From Thermodesulfobacterium sp. TA1 (GTDB taxonomy: Bacteria; Desulfobacterota; Thermodesulfobacteria; Thermodesulfobacteriales; Thermodesulfobacteriaceae), in NCBI RefSeq assembly GCF_008630935.1, contig NZ_CP043908.1, positions 1,364,001 to 1,428,000 of the forward strand: 64,000 bases of DNA. Direction: 5' to 3'. Made by a program: the position numbers and the translations under genes. Positions 6,678 to 25,107 of the stretch are shown here, piece after piece (within the stretch, counting starts at the first letter, position 1; every line of letters begins with the position of its first letter). The notes beneath the pieces are model-generated. The model was not told where the DNA came from. It saw nothing but the letters and a program-made list of their open reading frames with translations, and did no database searches.

Positions 6678-7400
6678 CTATTCACACAAATAATCTACGT
6701 TTGCTGAGACCTCTACGGTTTTTTCATCCTTCATAGGCTCAGGGGCTTCGATACTAGAAGGTTCAGCGCTTTTTAACATCGTAAATCGATAGGTGATAGG
6801 AAGATAACGCCCTACAGTAAAACTAATAGAAGTAACGCGACAAACCTTGCCTAATTTCTCAGTTAAGGCTTCCCCAAAGTCTTGAGCCTTTTCTACCAAC
6901 TCTAATTTGATTTCTTTCTGCACTTTATCTGTTAATTCTTGAGAAGCAATCCATACCGGTTCAGAAACCTCAAAAGTTAAGCTTGGATAGGTTTCTTTTA
7001 TTTTGTTTAAAGTTTCATAAAGCACGTTCTGCTCTTTATAATCTCTTAGCTCAAAATTATAGGTGATATAACCGTTAACCCCCTCACATACTTGTCCTTT
7101 TTTTGCCCACCAACAATTTTGTTCTATCCTGTAATCACCACCTTTATAATTTAATCCCAGTTTTCTGATCCTTTTATCCGCATCTCCAAGAATATTAATC
7201 GCATCGGTCTCCTTATTAGCCTTAATTTTTACATTAATCCGAAGGCTTAAAATATCAGGCTGAATCTCTCTTTTATGCTCAAGAACTATACTAACTCTGG
7301 TAACTTTTTTAGGGTCAATGTTTGTTTCGCTTAAAGCTTTCCCTACATTAATCATAGATAATAAACCAACCCAGATGCTAATAAAGACTATCTTTTTCAT
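6678..7400 (-). CDS. SIMPL-domain (DUF541) secreted protein
   Basis: 240 aa with a typical signal peptide (KKIVFISIWVGLLSMINVG, cleavage near residue 24). The mature part has the SIMPL/DUF541 pattern: VLEHKREIQPDILSL near the start, a central alternating beta/helix region with EKAQDFGEAL, and the terminal VEVSANVDYLCE. Family members are periplasmic or outer-membrane proteins of poorly defined role. Two Cys in CWWAKKGQVC plus later Cys could form disulfides. Its upstream 100 bases are almost the same as those before the 92-aa gene at 10425, including a palindrome over the promoter, so the two are probably co-regulated. Confidence 0.8.
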   Translation of the reverse strand: MKKIVFISIWVGLLSMINVGKALSETNIDPKKVTRVSIVLEHKREIQPDILSLRINVKIKANKETDAINILGDADKRIRKLGLNYKGGDYRIEQNCWWAKKGQVCEGVNGYITYNFELRDYKEQNVLYETLNKIKETYPSLTFEVSEPVWIASQELTDKVQKEIKLELVEKAQDFGEALTEKLGKVCRVTSISFTVGRYLPITYRFTMLKSAEPSSIEAPEPMKDEKTVEVSANVDYLCE

Positions 7401-7742: not shown

Positions 7743-9365
7743 TTAATCTAAGGTGGTTAAATTAAATTTTCCACTTTCTACTTCAATCGGAGGTCCATTC
7801 TGCACCCGGAAAAAAATCCGTACATTTAAACCAGGAAAGTTTTTATCGTCCACCTCAACCTCAACAACAGAATTTTCCTCCTTCAAAGACTTGATTTTAT
7901 TCTCAACATAAATTTTTTCTGAAACTACACTGACAGAAGCCCTTCCTTTAAGTAAATTGATGATACATTCTTTATTTTTAAGTTCAAACATCGTATCTTT
8001 TTCAACCATAAAACAGGAACCAGGTTCTAAAATCATTGAAACACGACCATCAACCGTAAGAGCTGACACTGGCTCAGTCTTAGCACAATAAACCTTTTGA
8101 GTAGCTAATAACCGCGGATAAGCACCTATTTTCACCTCAATGTATGGCTTAATATCAGGATTATTCCCTTCATAAATTAATTCATTTATTAATATGCCTC
8201 CCCATTCAACCACAGTAAATCCTTTTCTTCTTGGAGTTTTTATTACAGGTTCTTTTATTTTTTCTTCTTGTTGGATACCCTCAAACGCCAAAATAACCCT
8301 AATAATTTTATCTGGCTTTGGCTTAATCCAAATGGCCAAACTATCATCCAAAAAATTTCTGCTTAATAACATTATTTTAAAATACGGATAACCTTTTAAT
8401 TCTTTTAACCAATAGTCTTTAAAATCTTTAATTTCTTTTCTATTCAAACCTAACTTAGGTAATATTTTATCAAACCAACGGTTAAGTTCCTCTGTTTTAA
8501 CCACCCATCCTTCTTTTGGTAAGTCTAAAGGTGTATTCAACGCTACTTCATAAAATAAATACTCGTACTTATCATCTATGATTCCCTTTGGATTGGCTTT
8601 AACCGACCAAAACCCATTATAAGAAGGAATAGTTTTAGTTAACCAACCCTTAGGATTTAGATAAACTTCTATTTGCTTAGTCTTAGTAGGATAAAGATAA
8701 ATAGCTGGCTTTTTTACAAGAGGTAAAGGATATTTTATATCTGCTTCTTCACAGGTCAATAATTTCATTTCTTTGTTTTCATCTCTTACTAAGGTAAAAC
8801 AAAGCGTTTCTAATTTGGTTGGACAACAAGAAGGATCGGTTTCTCTATGGGTAAGAAGTGATAAATATATTGAGTCTCTCTCTCTATCACGAAAAGTAAC
8901 AAATCCTGGCTGAAATTTTAAATCTTTTACTACCACTCTATCTCCAAGTTTTATTGAATTAGTTTGCATGATTTTGCCATTTTCATTTACAAGTGCGGTT
9001 ATTTCAAAAAAAACACCACTTCCCCCAAAATTTTCAGAAAGTATAACTATAGCAAACGGTAATGAAAAGTTTGGTTTAAAAATACCATATTTTTCTATTT
9101 TTACGCTGATGTAATTTTTGATATCTTCTTCATTACCAGGTCTCAATTGAGTTTTATACTCCCCATTTTTTAATGTCACTGTTTGCCCTGAATACTTTAA
9201 ATGATATCTAAAGTTCTTAATGGTTTCTTCATTTAGAGTATCAGGGCTTTCTGAAGCTATAGTTGATTTTATCGTAAGCAAAAAAATATATACTGTTGTT
9301 ATTAAAAGAAGATTTATACTATACATTAGATTTGTTTTTATAAAATTTATCATGTTGTTCCTCAC
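7743..9365 (-). CDS. Large secreted protein with a KPAIYLYP-type domain
   Basis: 540 aa with a signal peptide (hydrophobic about 15-37). At about residues 220-350 it carries KKPAIYLYPTKTKQIEVYL and the following W- and Y-rich strands (SYNGFWSVKANPKG, YEYLFYE). I recognise this as a widespread uncharacterised domain found in secreted bacterial proteins. The C-terminal about 130 residues have a FecR-like beta character (VDGRVSMILEPGSC). CC and C residues near 180-205 may form disulfides. Second-last gene of a minus-strand cluster of secreted proteins (10425 to 7508). No enzymatic residues identified. Confidence 0.75.
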   Translation of the reverse strand: MRNNMINFIKTNLMYSINLLLITTVYIFLLTIKSTIASESPDTLNEETIKNFRYHLKYSGQTVTLKNGEYKTQLRPGNEEDIKNYISVKIEKYGIFKPNFSLPFAIVILSENFGGSGVFFEITALVNENGKIMQTNSIKLGDRVVVKDLKFQPGFVTFRDRERDSIYLSLLTHRETDPSCCPTKLETLCFTLVRDENKEMKLLTCEEADIKYPLPLVKKPAIYLYPTKTKQIEVYLNPKGWLTKTIPSYNGFWSVKANPKGIIDDKYEYLFYEVALNTPLDLPKEGWVVKTEELNRWFDKILPKLGLNRKEIKDFKDYWLKELKGYPYFKIMLLSRNFLDDSLAIWIKPKPDKIIRVILAFEGIQQEEKIKEPVIKTPRRKGFTVVEWGGILINELIYEGNNPDIKPYIEVKIGAYPRLLATQKVYCAKTEPVSALTVDGRVSMILEPGSCFMVEKDTMFELKNKECIINLLKGRASVSVVSEKIYVENKIKSLKEENSVVEVEVDDKNFPGLNVRIFFRVQNGPPIEVESGKFNLTTLD

Positions 9366-9701: not shown

Positions 9702-9926
9702 TTAATTACATACTTCTTCCCATTCTACACATACTTTATACACACCACAGATTTTTTTACCAGGGAAAACAGGATCAGGCTGGCAAAATCTTCTTTCTTC
9801 CCATTTTTTACAAACCTTTTCGCAATTCTCATTGCTGGTGGTAGATTCTTTATTTTGAATATCTGTTGCCCAAAGGTTACTCATAAAAAAAACTAGGAAA
9901 CTAAGAACCAAAACTGTTTTTTTCAT
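9702..9926 (-). CDS. Cys-rich small secreted protein
   Basis: 74 aa. Signal peptide (KKTVLVLSFLVFFMSNLWA, cleaved near residue 20). The mature 54 residues hold six Cys with a repeated pattern: CEKVCKKWEERRFC then CGVYKVCVEWEEVC. The two C-x3/4-C-(K/V)-x-W-E-E blocks are an internal duplication. Six Cys in so small a protein suggests a disulfide-stapled periplasmic or extracellular peptide. No family recognised. A good ribosome site (GGAGGTAG) precedes the ATG. Confidence 0.65.
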   Translation of the reverse strand: MKKTVLVLSFLVFFMSNLWATDIQNKESTTSNENCEKVCKKWEERRFCQPDPVFPGKKICGVYKVCVEWEEVCN

Positions 9927-10146: not shown

Positions 10147-10425
10147 TTATTTTCCTCTTCCATATTGTCCTTTTTTATCAATGTTCGGAACTGGATATTT
10201 TGGAGAATTCTTAAGTCTTGGGTTTTCCTTGCGTTCCTTTTCAGCTTCCCTAGCAGCTTTTAACCACTTCTCATACTTAGAACTTTTTTCTATCTCAGAG
10301 GGCTCATTAACCTCAAAATTTTTTGTAGATTTATTTACTTCATACATTGAATTGTCAGCTTTCCCTTTGAAAGTTGTAATGAATAATAAAAGAGTAAAAC
10401 TGAGTACTAATGTTAGTTTATTCAT
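10147..10425 (-). CDS. Small secreted charged protein
   Basis: 92 aa. Signal peptide of about 23 residues (KLTLVLSFTLLLFITTFKGKA). The mature part is highly charged and probably helical in the middle (KYEKWLKAAREAEKERKE), ending in a basic, Pro-rich tail (NSPKYPVPNIDKKGQYGRGK). No known family. It is first in the minus-strand secreted-protein cluster, behind a ribosome site (GCAGGAGG) in the duplicated promoter segment. A broken second copy lies just downstream. Confidence 0.6.
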   Translation of the reverse strand: MNKLTLVLSFTLLLFITTFKGKADNSMYEVNKSTKNFEVNEPSEIEKSSKYEKWLKAAREAEKERKENPRLKNSPKYPVPNIDKKGQYGRGK

Positions 10426-10663: not shown

Positions 10664-11863
10664 ATGACCCATTACATCGGTGTTGACATTTCTAAAGATA
10701 ACTTCCACTTCTGCATCCTTAACCATGAAGCTAAAACCCTCTCCTCCGGCAAACTCTCTATGTCTCTTCAAGGCTTCTCTGATTTCTTTAACCTTCTCAA
10801 AACCCTCTCTGACCCTATCGTTGTTATGGAATCCTCTGGTAGGTTCCACATCCCCCTTTACTGCTTCCTCGTTGAAAAAGATATCCAAACCTTCATCCTT
10901 AACCCTAAAATCGTCCACAGATTCTTTGAATTTATCTCCGCTAACAACCCCTCTAAATACGACACAAAAGATGCCAAAATCCTTGCACTCTTCGCTCTTA
11001 ATAACCCTGAATTCCTTAAATCCTATCCTGAAAACTCTGAACTCCGTAGTGCTTCTCGTCTTATCCAAAAACTTAAACATGAACTTGCTGAAGCTAAAAC
11101 TCAAATCAAATACGCCCTCACTGTTCTTTTCCCAGAAGCTGAAAAGCACTTTAATATTTACTCCCACTCCTTCCTTAACATACTCCTTAAATTCCCCTCT
11201 GCTAAAACCCTTAAAAAAGCTAAACCAAATGAAATTTCCGAAATTATTAAATCCTCTGTTCCTAAAGGTAAAACCCCTTCCTTTTCTCCCGATGAAGTCA
11301 TAAACCTTGCTAAAAACTCTATCGGGGTTGACAATCCTTATCTCTCTCAAACTCTTATCATCTACATCGAAAAACTCTTTTTCCTTGAGCCAAGAATAAA
11401 AAAGCTTGAAGAGATGCTTGTAGAGAAAATGGATGAAGACCAGCAAGAACAAATTAAGCTCATTTCCTCTATAAAAGGTATTTCCTCTAAACTTGCAAGT
11501 CTCTTTTTGGCTGAAATCAGAGACGTAAAAAGATTTTCTAATGCCAAAAAGCTCATAAAGTTTGCGGGCACAGACCCAGTAACAAAACAATCTGGTAAGT
11601 ATAAAGCTAAGATGAGCATATCTAAGCAAGGGTCGAGCTTTCTCAGAAATGTTCTTTTCCAGATGGCGGTAGGTGTAGTAAAATGGAATTTTTACTTCAG
11701 ATCCTATTTTATACGTAAGAAGAAAAACTTTGGCAGTTATAAGAAAGCTATGATAGCAGTTGTAAACAAACTTATAAGAGTTATCTATGCAATTTGTAGA
11801 AAAAAAACTTTCTTTAATCCTGCTTTTTCTAAGTTCCCTGTTCTGGAGGTCTCTCATGTTTAA
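10664..11863 (+). CDS. IS110-family transposase (DEDD recombinase)
   Basis: 399 aa, full length for the family. The N-terminal RuvC-like DEDD domain shows YIGVDIS (Asp8), VMESSGR, and KYDTKDAKILA. A coiled-coil linker covers about residues 145-260. The C-terminal Transposase_20 domain contains ISSIKGIS and the catalytic Ser region SISKQGSSFLRNVL. A strong ribosome site (AAGGAGGTAGC) precedes the ATG. The frame is intact, so the element may be active. Codon use is C-rich (many CTT/CTC/AAC) compared with the AT-rich genes around it, suggesting recent arrival. Long antisense and shifted frames here are shadows. Confidence 0.95.
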   Translation: MTHYIGVDISKDNFHFCILNHEAKTLSSGKLSMSLQGFSDFFNLLKTLSDPIVVMESSGRFHIPLYCFLVEKDIQTFILNPKIVHRFFEFISANNPSKYDTKDAKILALFALNNPEFLKSYPENSELRSASRLIQKLKHELAEAKTQIKYALTVLFPEAEKHFNIYSHSFLNILLKFPSAKTLKKAKPNEISEIIKSSVPKGKTPSFSPDEVINLAKNSIGVDNPYLSQTLIIYIEKLFFLEPRIKKLEEMLVEKMDEDQQEQIKLISSIKGISSKLASLFLAEIRDVKRFSNAKKLIKFAGTDPVTKQSGKYKAKMSISKQGSSFLRNVLFQMAVGVVKWNFYFRSYFIRKKKNFGSYKKAMIAVVNKLIRVIYAICRKKTFFNPAFSKFPVLEVSHV

Positions 11864-11994: not shown

Positions 11995-13062
11995 TCAATT
12001 TCCCTCGCAGATTTTTTTGCATGCTTCAATAGAATCAAAAGGTACAACATGACCCCCACAGCCGCCATGAACAAATGTATGGCAGGTTTTGTCAAAATTA
12101 GAAAAATATGCTCCTTCAAACAGACCCTTACAAGTTCCTGGTAGAGGTGGTAAGTAACATCTCTTTTTAATATCAATCTTTTTTCCTTGAGTTCTTTGAA
12201 TAAAATCACTTAGAAATATAGCGGCACTTTTATGACCTTTAAAAGTGCAAGCATCAACATCTTCTTCATTTGGAATATTGCCTTTTTCTATGAGAATCTT
12301 TATAATGTTTACGTTTTCTATATCAGCCATACAGGTAAATTTTATAATATTTTTTTGTTTTAGATTGGCTCCTTTTTCTGCAAGAATATGAAAAATATCA
12401 TCATAGCCTTTTATTATAGCAATTTTAAGAGATTCGTCATTAAACTCAATTCCTTGTTTTAAAAGAAACAAAGAAACTTCTTTATGTTTTCTCCTGAGAA
12501 ATTCATTTAAAAAATTTGCTCCGACCGATTTCTTTATATCCCAGCCCTTTTTAAGGCAAACCTCAAAAATTTCTATGATTTTTTTATAGTCTCTTTCTCC
12601 GAAAGCAAGTCCATATAGCGGGATCTCTCCTCTGTTATCTTTCAAATTAAAATCAGCACCATTTTCTATAAGAAAAATAATAAAATCTTCATTCATAAAA
12701 TTGTAAGCAATAGCATCATGGAGAGGTGTTCTGCCATCTTTATCTTTGGCGTTAATATCAGCTCCTTTTGCCAAAAGAATTTTGACCATGTTAAGGTCTC
12801 CCTCTCGGGCTGCGTAATGAAGCAAAGTCTTACCATTGTCATCACGAACGTTTACATCCTTTTGATTAAGGATGTATTTTTTCATTAATTCAATATTGTC
12901 CGAGCCTTTCTTCATTTCTGATCCTTTGTCAACGAAATATCGTTGGAATATTTCATCATTAGATCGAGAATATGAGACAGATGGGAAAAGAAAGAAGTAT
13001 CCTGCAAAAAAAGCACAAATTATTGTGATTATCAATATTCTATGCTGACCCTTTTCCATCAT
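11995..13062 (-). CDS. Secreted ankyrin-repeat protein with C-terminal Kunitz (BPTI-type) domain
   Basis: 355 aa from the ATG at 13062 (GTG at 13074 and ATG at 13059 are alternatives; GGTGG and GGGAG precede them). A signal peptide or anchor spans about residues 6-30. Ankyrin repeats follow, clearest in KTLLHYAAREGDLNMVKILL and RTPLHDAIA, then degenerate repeats to about residue 285. The last about 54 residues are a Kunitz domain: six Cys with spacings 9-16-8-13-4, exactly those of bovine BPTI, plus TCKG (P1 Lys), the FVHGGCGG core and the final CKKIC. Kunitz domains inhibit serine proteases; Lys at P1 predicts a trypsin-like target. Stop-start overlap with the FecR fragment upstream. Confidence 0.85.
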   Translation of the reverse strand: MMEKGQHRILIITIICAFFAGYFFLFPSVSYSRSNDEIFQRYFVDKGSEMKKGSDNIELMKKYILNQKDVNVRDDNGKTLLHYAAREGDLNMVKILLAKGADINAKDKDGRTPLHDAIAYNFMNEDFIIFLIENGADFNLKDNRGEIPLYGLAFGERDYKKIIEIFEVCLKKGWDIKKSVGANFLNEFLRRKHKEVSLFLLKQGIEFNDESLKIAIIKGYDDIFHILAEKGANLKQKNIIKFTCMADIENVNIIKILIEKGNIPNEEDVDACTFKGHKSAAIFLSDFIQRTQGKKIDIKKRCYLPPLPGTCKGLFEGAYFSNFDKTCHTFVHGGCGGHVVPFDSIEACKKICEGN

Positions 13063-13373
13063 TTCTCCCACCACCTTTCAAGATTTTCTATTTTTCTTAT
13101 AGTTATAGTCTCACCTAAATTTATTATAGCTTCGTAGCCTTCTTGTATCAAATAGGATTTATTTTTAATATTATCGGTAAATTCAACTTCTCCTTCTATT
13201 ACCGAAATTTTTATAATGTGCCCATCTTCTCTTTCCACAACAAATTCAGTTCCTCTGGGTGTGGTAACAGCATCAGTAGGTACTTTACTACAATTCGGCC
13301 TCCCTACAGTAATCTTACATAATTCAATTCTAAGTTTTTTTATGGATTTTTGAATTCTTCTACTGCACCCCAT
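13059..13373 (-). pseudogene. FecR-domain protein, 5' end cut off by an IS3 remnant
   Basis: 104 codons are open. From about residue 33 the sequence is FecR-like: TPRGTEFVVEREDGHIIKIS, VIEGEVEF, then SYLIQEGYEAII. The N-terminus is missing, and the present first codons (MGCSRR) are read from the terminal repeat of the IS3-type fragment beginning at 13364. So an exported FecR-type protein was truncated by insertion. FecR domains bind or sense at the cell surface. The last codon overlaps the ankyrin-Kunitz start, so the two were one operon and the downstream gene may have lost its native promoter. Confidence 0.7.
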
Positions 13374-13530
13374 TTGTCAAGACATTTTTTATGCCTTAAA
13401 GTTTTAGAGGTCATGCTACCTTTCTTATCCTTTCCTCATATTTTGCTTCAAATTCTTCTGGGCTCATGTACCCAAGCTTAAAGTGCACATAGAGCTTGTT
13501 ATAGTCCTCTTGTATCCACCTGCTATAAAA
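13364..13530 (-). mobile_element. IS3-family remnant: right end and orfB C-terminus
   Basis: Terminal repeat TGCACCCCATTTGTCAAGAC starts at 13364. A frame read 13526 to 13411 gives WIQEDYNKLYVHFKLGYMSP then EEFEAKYEERIRKVA and stop, the characteristic C-terminus of IS3-family OrfB integrases (YN..R.H..LGY.SP pattern). The rest of the element is gone; 13531-13632 shows nothing recognisable. The same terminal repeat bounds the miniature elements at 17218 and 25259. Confidence 0.8.
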
Positions 13531-13632: not shown

Positions 13633-13929
13633 CTATTTTGATAGATTGTTATCAATCTTTGGCTTAGGGATTGGTATATATTGCACACCACCAGAGAGAT
13701 TGCTAGACCTTCCAGTATCAAACCCTTGACTTGCCTCTCTTCTTGCTCTCTCCCAAGAGCTATCAAGATCGTTATAATTTCCAGAAGATGTTGAATGTTG
13801 TTCTGCCCTCCAGCTGTCTCCTGAGGTTCCAGCGGCTTGGTCATAAGCAGAATCTCCACCATAAGCTATTCCCGATATAAACAAAACAAAAACCATACCA
13901 AACATGCCCTTCTTTAAGAATCTTTTCAT
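13633..13929 (-). CDS. Small secreted Ser/Gly-rich protein
   Basis: 98 aa. Signal peptide (LKKGMFGMVFVLFISGIAYG, cleaved near residue 24). The mature part is polar and low complexity: DQAAGTSGDSWRAEQHSTSS, then SSWERARREASQGFD and a short C-terminal IPIPKPKID tail. No family recognised; it looks intrinsically disordered. It follows the 1024-aa gene by 11 bases and has its own ribosome site (GGGGGGC region), so both should share one transcript. An alternative frame at 13602-13862 is a shadow. Confidence 0.6.
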   Translation of the reverse strand: MKRFLKKGMFGMVFVLFISGIAYGGDSAYDQAAGTSGDSWRAEQHSTSSGNYNDLDSSWERARREASQGFDTGRSSNLSGGVQYIPIPKPKIDNNLSK

Positions 13930-24629: not shown

Positions 24630-24633
24630 CACT

Positions 24634-25107
24634 TTACCTCCTTCCTATTCTAATCTCCCTCCACTTCTTCCTCTGCTCCTCGTTTAACACCCCGTCTATC
24701 TTCTTCCCTGTCTCAAGCTCCTCTGCTATCAGCTCCCCACGAAGACAATGTATCTCCTTGACAAGCTTCTTTATTTCTTTGATGTCCCAATCACTGTTTA
24801 ACATCTCCTTAAACCTTGCCTCCTTCTCCCTAATCTTGCTTGACAACTCTTGCTCCTTTTTAAAAAATCCCTGCAAATACTTCTCTATCTCCTTAACCTG
24901 CTTCTCATTAAGCTTAAGCTCCTCCTTAAAATCAAGAATAGTCTTTCTTGCTTGAGGAACACCTCCCTTAACCACCTCCTGAGAATACGCATAAACAACC
25001 AGACTTAATGCTAAAACAAAAGCTAAAACAATGTTCCTAATAGTTGAAATAGTTGATATAAATGATGAAATCTTGAAATAAAAGTCAAATTTCAAAAATC
25101 CTATCAC
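24634..25107 (-). CDS. Spy/CpxP-like periplasmic protein (LTXXQ-type)
   Basis: 157 aa, GTG start. The first 46 residues are the same signal-peptide cassette as the 1024-aa protein. The mature part is all-helical with LKLNEKQVKEIEKYLQGFF near its start and VLNEEQRKKWREI near its end, the two LTxxQ-type motifs of the Spy/CpxP/heavy-metal-resistance family. Such proteins are periplasmic chaperones or stress sensors. Standing directly before a giant autotransporter, it may protect the unfolded passenger in the periplasm; that role is an inference. Confidence 0.8.
   Translation of the reverse strand: MIGFLKFDFYFKISSFISTISTIRNIVLAFVLALSLVVYAYSQEVVKGGVPQARKTILDFKEELKLNEKQVKEIEKYLQGFFKKEQELSSKIREKEARFKEMLNSDWDIKEIKKLVKEIHCLRGELIAEELETGKKIDGVLNEEQRKKWREIRIGRR

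Follow-up and report, generated by a model that had tools for sequence, protein, structure and literature searches.

Kunitz domains have been studied almost wholly as animal proteins. The closest described counterparts of the domain reported here are the Kunitz/BPTI inhibitors (PF00014, MEROPS I2), with which it shares the six-cysteine spacing, a lysine at P1, the predicted fold and a full-length profile match. It differs from them in carrying G-(H)-VVPF where they have G-N-x-N-x-F around BPTI position 43, in being fused behind ankyrin repeats, and in being a putative inhibitor, so classed from its sequence. That Kunitz domains occur in bacteria is already known, and has been mentioned in passing (PMC3426482). 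The other bacterial examples (in Bacteroidota lipoproteins, DUF2330–Kunitz proteins and Geobacteraceae) belong to the same clade and share its motif, and some adjoin secreted ankyrin genes; they are, however, unfused to ankyrin repeats, and their P1 residue is often acidic or aliphatic. The literature searched, which covered few subscription journals, yielded no dedicated study of bacterial Kunitz domains and no description of an ankyrin–Kunitz family, of its sequence signature or of an exchange between Kunitz and serpin inhibitors.

Two further kinds of inhibitor bear comparison. Prokaryotic serpins, whose functions have been described as enigmatic (PMC8233489), are likewise secreted serine-protease inhibitors, and one with a predicted P1 lysine fills the corresponding island of a sister species; their fold is unrelated, and they act by the serpin suicide mechanism as opposed to the reversible standard mechanism. 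Ecotin, a bacterial inhibitor of foreign serine proteases (PMC7773321), differs from Kunitz proteins in fold and family, and the likeness would be one of functional analogy, namely the proposed neutralising of foreign trypsin-like proteases outside a Gram-negative cell.

The locus described here lies in a 64,000-nucleotide stretch of the genome of Thermodesulfobacterium sp. TA1 (hereafter the window), a genus assignment that supports the thermophilic sulfate reducer originally proposed as host.

The ankyrin–Kunitz protein

The ankyrin–Kunitz gene occupies positions 11995–13062 on the minus strand and encodes 355 amino acids from an ATG start, or 359 amino acids (11995–13074) from a GTG start. 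From its N-terminus the product comprises a leader resembling a signal peptide and then ankyrin repeats, and it ends in a Kunitz domain; no other Kunitz domain occurs in the complete 1.83 Mb genome. The open reading frame and its Pfam matches to Ank_2 and Kunitz_BPTI confirm the architecture given in the original prediction, an ankyrin protein ending in a Kunitz/BPTI domain behind a leader. The leader, MMEKGQHRILIITIICAFFAGYFFLFPSVSYSRS (about 34 amino acids, 12961–13062, minus strand, recognised by inspection), reaches a peak hydropathy of 2.43 in a 19-residue window and is predicted to be helical at residues 7–29 (359-residue numbering) in an AlphaFold2 model, and a hydrophobic N-terminal segment is also present in the orthologues. 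The ankyrin-repeat region (12178–12960, minus strand) matches Ank_2 with an E-value of 1.5e-27, and in the whole-chain AlphaFold2 model (24-row alignment, mean pLDDT 87.4) it has a solenoid fold for which Foldseek returned ankyrin and DARPin structures. Matches to Legionella-type NCBIfam ankyrin models were rejected as evidence of an effector, being generic repeat matches far under their cut-offs. The open reading frame is not a chance one, because orthologues of the same architecture exist, and between those of T. hveragerdense and T. thermophilum dN/dS is 0.22 over the whole gene and 0.13 over the Kunitz part; the gene is under purifying selection.

The Kunitz domain (12004–12162, minus strand) is, judged by profile match and predicted fold, a real and well-formed one in an unusual bacterial architecture. 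Comparison with PF00014, suggested as a check when the domain was first noticed, gave a match over the whole profile (positions 1–53 of 53, residues 305–357; E 3.4e-10; 40.4 bits against a cut-off of 21). The gaps between its six cysteines are 8, 15, 7, 12 and 3 residues, identical to those of BPTI (9-16-8-13-4 in the earlier notation), TC-K-G places a lysine at P1, the residue after the second cysteine, and the FVHGGCGG and CKKIC elements are both found, all as originally reported. The “exact BPTI spacing” holds for this copy but not for other bacterial Kunitz domains, orthologues included, nearly all of which are one residue shorter between C38 and C51 (11, not 12); the window domain reaches 12 because of an extra histidine (GGHVVPF). 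The residues of the canonical loop (G12, C14, P1 and G36–G37) are present as PG-T-C-K-G and H-GG-C. The position of BPTI Asn43 is replaced within VVPF, as it is across the bacterial clade, a buried Asn43 being typical of the animal domains compared and not strictly defining for Kunitz/BPTI. Structure prediction, likewise proposed as a check, was carried out for the domain alone (AlphaFold2, 29-row alignment): the model (pLDDT 84.6) has the helix/strand/strand/helix order expected for Kunitz, and its best 50 PDB matches in Foldseek are Kunitz structures without exception (TM to query 0.58–0.75).

Two cysteines of the ankyrin part (FTC.. and DAC/DFC..) occupy the same or an adjacent position in all six aligned full-length members. 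Such a pair is consistent with an oxidising compartment and may represent a possible fourth disulfide. One membrane protein of the window genome resembles VKOR in its cysteine motifs, which are a CxxxxC loop, FCQFC and, in a thioredoxin-like tail, CPNC; it matches VKOR at 20.3 bits, under the curated cut-off of 27.5, and is a candidate disulfide source.

Relatives and genomic neighbourhood

The ankyrin–Kunitz order recurs in related genomes, which had been raised as a point to check. Kunitz domains occur in 3 of the 41 genomes of the order, those of the window, T. hveragerdense (L025) and T. thermophilum (L035), and all three are ankyrin–Kunitz proteins; the architecture is also found in Geomobilimonas luticola (L017), MAG L010 and genome G591 (L091), so that the full-length form is spread over five deltaproteobacterial genomes besides the window. 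A shortened copy, whose Kunitz part is without the first cysteine region, is present in G615. P1 is lysine in five of the six aligned full-length proteins and glutamine in the sixth, and identity between the window and T. hveragerdense proteins is 61% in the Kunitz part and 41% in the ankyrin part. Beyond this family, profile searches recovered Kunitz domains in 8 of 395 genomes sampled across the phylum, with one match taken to be false, and in 13 of 141 genomes of the Geobacter-type order, and our survey gathered 54 Kunitz loci in Bacteroidota, Marinimicrobia, Proteobacteria, Nitrospirota, Methylomirabilota and one archaeon. Prokaryotic Kunitz domains are rare yet widespread. Because Kunitz genes adjoin secreted ankyrin genes elsewhere (L011, L017, L023 and L040), the link to ankyrin proteins is recurrent and not the peculiarity of one fusion. 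A Pfam Kunitz match in an RCC1-like protein (L009) was treated as a false positive. No Kunitz domain was found in plasmid and phage records; among the plasmid matches listed for the full ankyrin–Kunitz protein none reached a query coverage of at least 80%, and these were ordinary ankyrin proteins by annotation, or unannotated.

At two Geobacteraceae loci (L017:7133-8681 and L042:5740-7438) the Kunitz gene codes for a leader-like N-terminal segment and, at the other end, a short conserved tail (…RDFEN…), and directly after it comes a radical SAM/SPASM gene, whose matches to peptide maturases are at family level and all under equivalog cut-offs. The Kunitz protein of this pair is possibly a modified one, to judge from its neighbour, and the literature search found no account of a modified (RiPP-like) Kunitz protein with a radical SAM enzyme; such a reading was rejected for the window, since the radical SAM neighbour belongs to the Geobacter-type copies. 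Fusions of DUF2330 to Kunitz were confirmed by Pfam at L014, L023 and L039 and recognised by sequence likeness at L034, L041, L097 and L011, and at L011 and L023 a large secreted ankyrin gene follows the fusion gene. Kazal and Kunitz domains stand in tandem in a protein encoded on a contig that was binned as archaeal (L051:5407-6162), and a Saprospiraceae protein is made up of a tandem array of six Kunitz domains whose P1 residues are K, E, K, E, K and R (L021:5374-6507).

In the window, the ankyrin–Kunitz gene is preceded by a short FecR-like open reading frame (13059–13373, minus strand, by inspection; no significant Pfam match), whose TGA overlaps the ankyrin–Kunitz ATG (ATGA; junction AAATGATGG), an overlap that suggests translational coupling of the two. 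Positions 13400-13500, between the FecR-like frame and the next gene, resemble on inspection an insertion-sequence integrase remnant, which suggests that the FecR-like gene is truncated. The next gene encodes a small secreted protein of the DSAYDQ family (13633–13929, minus strand; 58–72% identity to relatives); it keeps its place next to the inhibitor gene in both T. hveragerdense and T. thermophilum, and genome G005 has it in its serpin island. Just downstream of ankyrin–Kunitz an IS110-family transposase gene has inserted (10664–11863, plus strand; PF01548 4.3e-28, PF02371 1e-22). Four genes for secreted proteins lie beyond it, all on the minus strand. The first (10147–10425), for a small protein of the …KGQYGRGK family, has conserved counterparts in the islands of T. 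hveragerdense and T. thermophilum (tblastn E 7e-11 and 3e-11). The second encodes a small cysteine-rich protein (9702–9926; 55% identity to the G005 copy) and is the neighbour of the serpin in G005; both T. hveragerdense and T. thermophilum have it close to ankyrin–Kunitz. The third is a 540-residue companion (7743–9365) with homologues in related islands, and the fourth a SIMPL/DUF541 protein (6678–7400; PF04402 5.2e-09) whose orthologue in G005, with 80% identity, adjoins the serpin.

In T. hveragerdense, T. thermophilum and MAG L010 the gene immediately after ankyrin–Kunitz is a companion homologue, and within the genus the companion is found in 4 of 14 genomes, exactly those that bear an inhibitor. 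The C-terminal domain of the T. hveragerdense and T. thermophilum companions reappears in L010 as part of the ankyrin–Kunitz protein itself (3e-16), which links the two genes, and forms a separate gene after ankyrin–Kunitz in L091; the window companion is shorter and is without that domain. On the far side of the DSAYDQ gene is a large secreted gene, here called “big” (window:13941-17015), for a 1024-residue protein. Its first approximately 50 residues share 94–96% identity with the signal region of a Spy/CpxP-like open reading frame (24633-25107) that sits on the other side of a giant autotransporter, whereas the G005 and G013 orthologues each start with a signal of their own and a PDZ domain. 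Recombination around the autotransporter seems, from these comparisons, to have given “big” a different 5' end.

The genes “big”, acylphosphatase and M20 peptidase are contiguous in G013, G007 and G001, and in the window the secreted-protein gene set that includes ankyrin–Kunitz stands between “big” and acylphosphatase. The same small genes, with ankyrin–Kunitz and the companion, occur at other genomic places in T. hveragerdense (near a tRNA-Arg gene) and T. thermophilum (near a primase-like gene, a UvrD-type helicase and a TrwC-like relaxase, the last two by inspection), and all three Kunitz genes of Thermodesulfobacterium are found amid the same secreted-protein genes. No composition break marks the island.

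In G005 the island comprises “big”, the DSAYDQ gene, two companions, the cysteine-rich gene and SIMPL, beside a tyrosine-recombinase-like open reading frame. The searches of the order found no Kunitz domain in this genome; a secreted serpin is encoded between SIMPL and the cysteine-rich gene (PDB serpin match E 5e-89), the only serpin among the 14 genomes of the genus sample. The only other serpin found in the order, at a contig edge in G029, lies ahead of a TPR–PDZ gene whose homologue (4e-20) stands beside ankyrin–Kunitz in T. thermophilum. Counting the RCL from the hinge glycine (GTEAAAATAV…) predicts Lys–Ser at P1–P1' in both serpins, with which a conserpin alignment agrees. On the strength of these counts and of the TPR–PDZ and island contexts, the three Kunitz and two serpin proteins share a P1 lysine and a type of neighbourhood.

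Possible function and target

We consider it probable, with some reserve, that the ankyrin–Kunitz protein is a secreted serine-protease inhibitor directed against trypsin-like, probably foreign, proteases, and that it is accessory cargo of a mobile island. Its export, disulfides, inhibitory action, target and ankyrin role are what we infer, as follows. The leader would export the protein, which could be periplasmic, surface-bound or released, and its disulfides, C1–C6, C2–C4 and C3–C5 in the Kunitz domain, would form outside the cytoplasm; the ankyrin solenoid would provide a binding or positioning scaffold, and the Cys-Lys-Gly loop of the Kunitz domain would enter the S1 pocket of a trypsin-like (Lys/Arg-specific) protease in the manner of a standard-mechanism inhibitor. 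The target would most likely be a foreign protease from neighbouring or predatory microbes, and the serpin with a predicted lysine at P1 in the sister-species island would perform the same task with another fold. The unrelated serpin in the island of a sister species suggests that the island serves to block a protease. Of the surface or periplasmic protease inhibitor first envisaged, what stands is an ankyrin–Kunitz protein, putatively exported to the periplasm or secreted, that has serine-protease-inhibitor features, as indicated by its domain matches and relatives.

As Asn43 is replaced in the bacterial clade, inhibitory geometry is not to be presumed, and many of the 57 bacterial six-cysteine domains have Glu, Asp, Leu, Phe or Met at P1 (11 Glu, 4 Asp), residues unfit for trypsin-like targets. 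This wide variation favours a reading that we regard as unlikely yet the strongest competitor, in which the domain is a non-inhibitory, disulfide-stabilised recognition unit on an ankyrin adaptor, for envelope assembly or adhesion. Such a role would suit ankyrin repeats, which are general binders, and the envelope-type domains, DUF2330 among them, to which Kunitz is fused elsewhere; Kunitz domains that do not inhibit proteases are on record (PMC3426482), and the pairing of Geobacter-type Kunitz genes with a radical SAM/SPASM gene hints at other uses. It fits poorly, however, with a P1 lysine in all but one of the aligned ankyrin–Kunitz members and with a serpin of predicted P1 lysine as the alternative cargo in G005.

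Less probable again is that the protein serves the cell's own proteolysis, either as an endogenous regulator of an HtrA/DegQ-type periplasmic protease or as a protector of the cell's own exports such as the autotransporter. HtrA is the one trypsin-family match in the genome, PF00089 having a single match per genome, of about 500 amino acids, irrespective of inhibitor presence. An HtrA-sized protease is present in 12 of the 14 genus genomes (the two misses being incomplete assemblies), most of them without an inhibitor, and HtrA proteases prefer small aliphatic P1 residues, unlike lysine. Since the sole trypsin-family match is HtrA-sized and is present with or without the inhibitor, a foreign target is likelier. 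The autotransporter is a near neighbour in the window genome, but its presence does not track that of Kunitz: ankyrin–Kunitz is encoded in three Thermodesulfobacterium genomes, two of which lack an autotransporter beta-domain, and in one further genome an autotransporter occurs with neither Kunitz nor serpin. The suggestion that the domain protects the giant autotransporter is thus, as a general role, unsupported by co-occurrence.

If the ankyrin–Kunitz protein is a secreted inhibitor of foreign proteases, the serpin of G005 invites a further and more tentative reading, that of a mobile “anti-protease slot” in which inhibitors of unrelated structure that converge on lysine at P1, ankyrin–Kunitz or serpin, may replace one another on an exchangeable secreted-protein island as a means of extracellular defence. 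The base for such a swap is one fully syntenic genome (G005) and one contig-edge serpin (G029).

Origin of the Kunitz domain

The PF motif is present in all 57 six-cysteine domains of the 54-locus survey, a count that is biased because the survey patterns contained [VD]PF; Pfam-profile searches of the 395- and 141-genome samples, free of that bias, give the same motif. Between the fourth and fifth cysteines, 54 of the 57 domains have 11 residues. The nine animal domains compared (seven sequences from profile alignments, with BPTI and the APP inhibitor domain typed from general knowledge) have 12 residues there and are of the G-N-x-N-x-F type or its BPTI variant, and the “VPF” motif common to the window and bacteria is absent from all nine. 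A Kunitz tree of 70 domains and 54 columns separates animal from bacterial domains with support of 100/94 and groups the window domain inside the bacterial part, with other ankyrin–Kunitz domains (88/50) and not with animal ones. Placing the window domain with animals by constraint is 25 log-likelihood units worse, with an AU p of 0.134 that over 54 columns is no formal rejection. The best identity of the window domain is 60–66% to bacterial domains and at most 42% to the nine animal domains.

Two origins had been offered, transfer from a eukaryote and independent bacterial spread. The tree, the motif and the patchy distribution of the island favour the latter, and a recent transfer from animals appears disfavoured on these comparisons, the AU result notwithstanding. 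That an animal Kunitz domain recently entered a Thermodesulfobacterium ankyrin gene by horizontal transfer is very improbable: it is in animals that Kunitz domains are most familiar, the extra histidine brings back the animal spacing and the AU test is non-significant, but the closest relatives, the placement in the tree and the “VPF” motif are all bacterial, and the same full-length fusion occurs in five other bacterial genomes.

Should the slot reading be true, the island would be a way for bacteria to defend themselves, outside the cell, against the trypsin-like proteases of competing or predatory organisms, one that draws on an old bacterial Kunitz clade, marked by the PF motif and distinct from the animal one. 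A clade with its own signature, an ankyrin–Kunitz architecture recurrent in several deltaproteobacterial lineages and its alternation, on one mobile island, with a serpin of equal predicted P1 would together make the purpose of bacterial Kunitz and serpin proteins directly testable, and these small, heat-stable proteins would serve for asking what such proteins do in bacteria.
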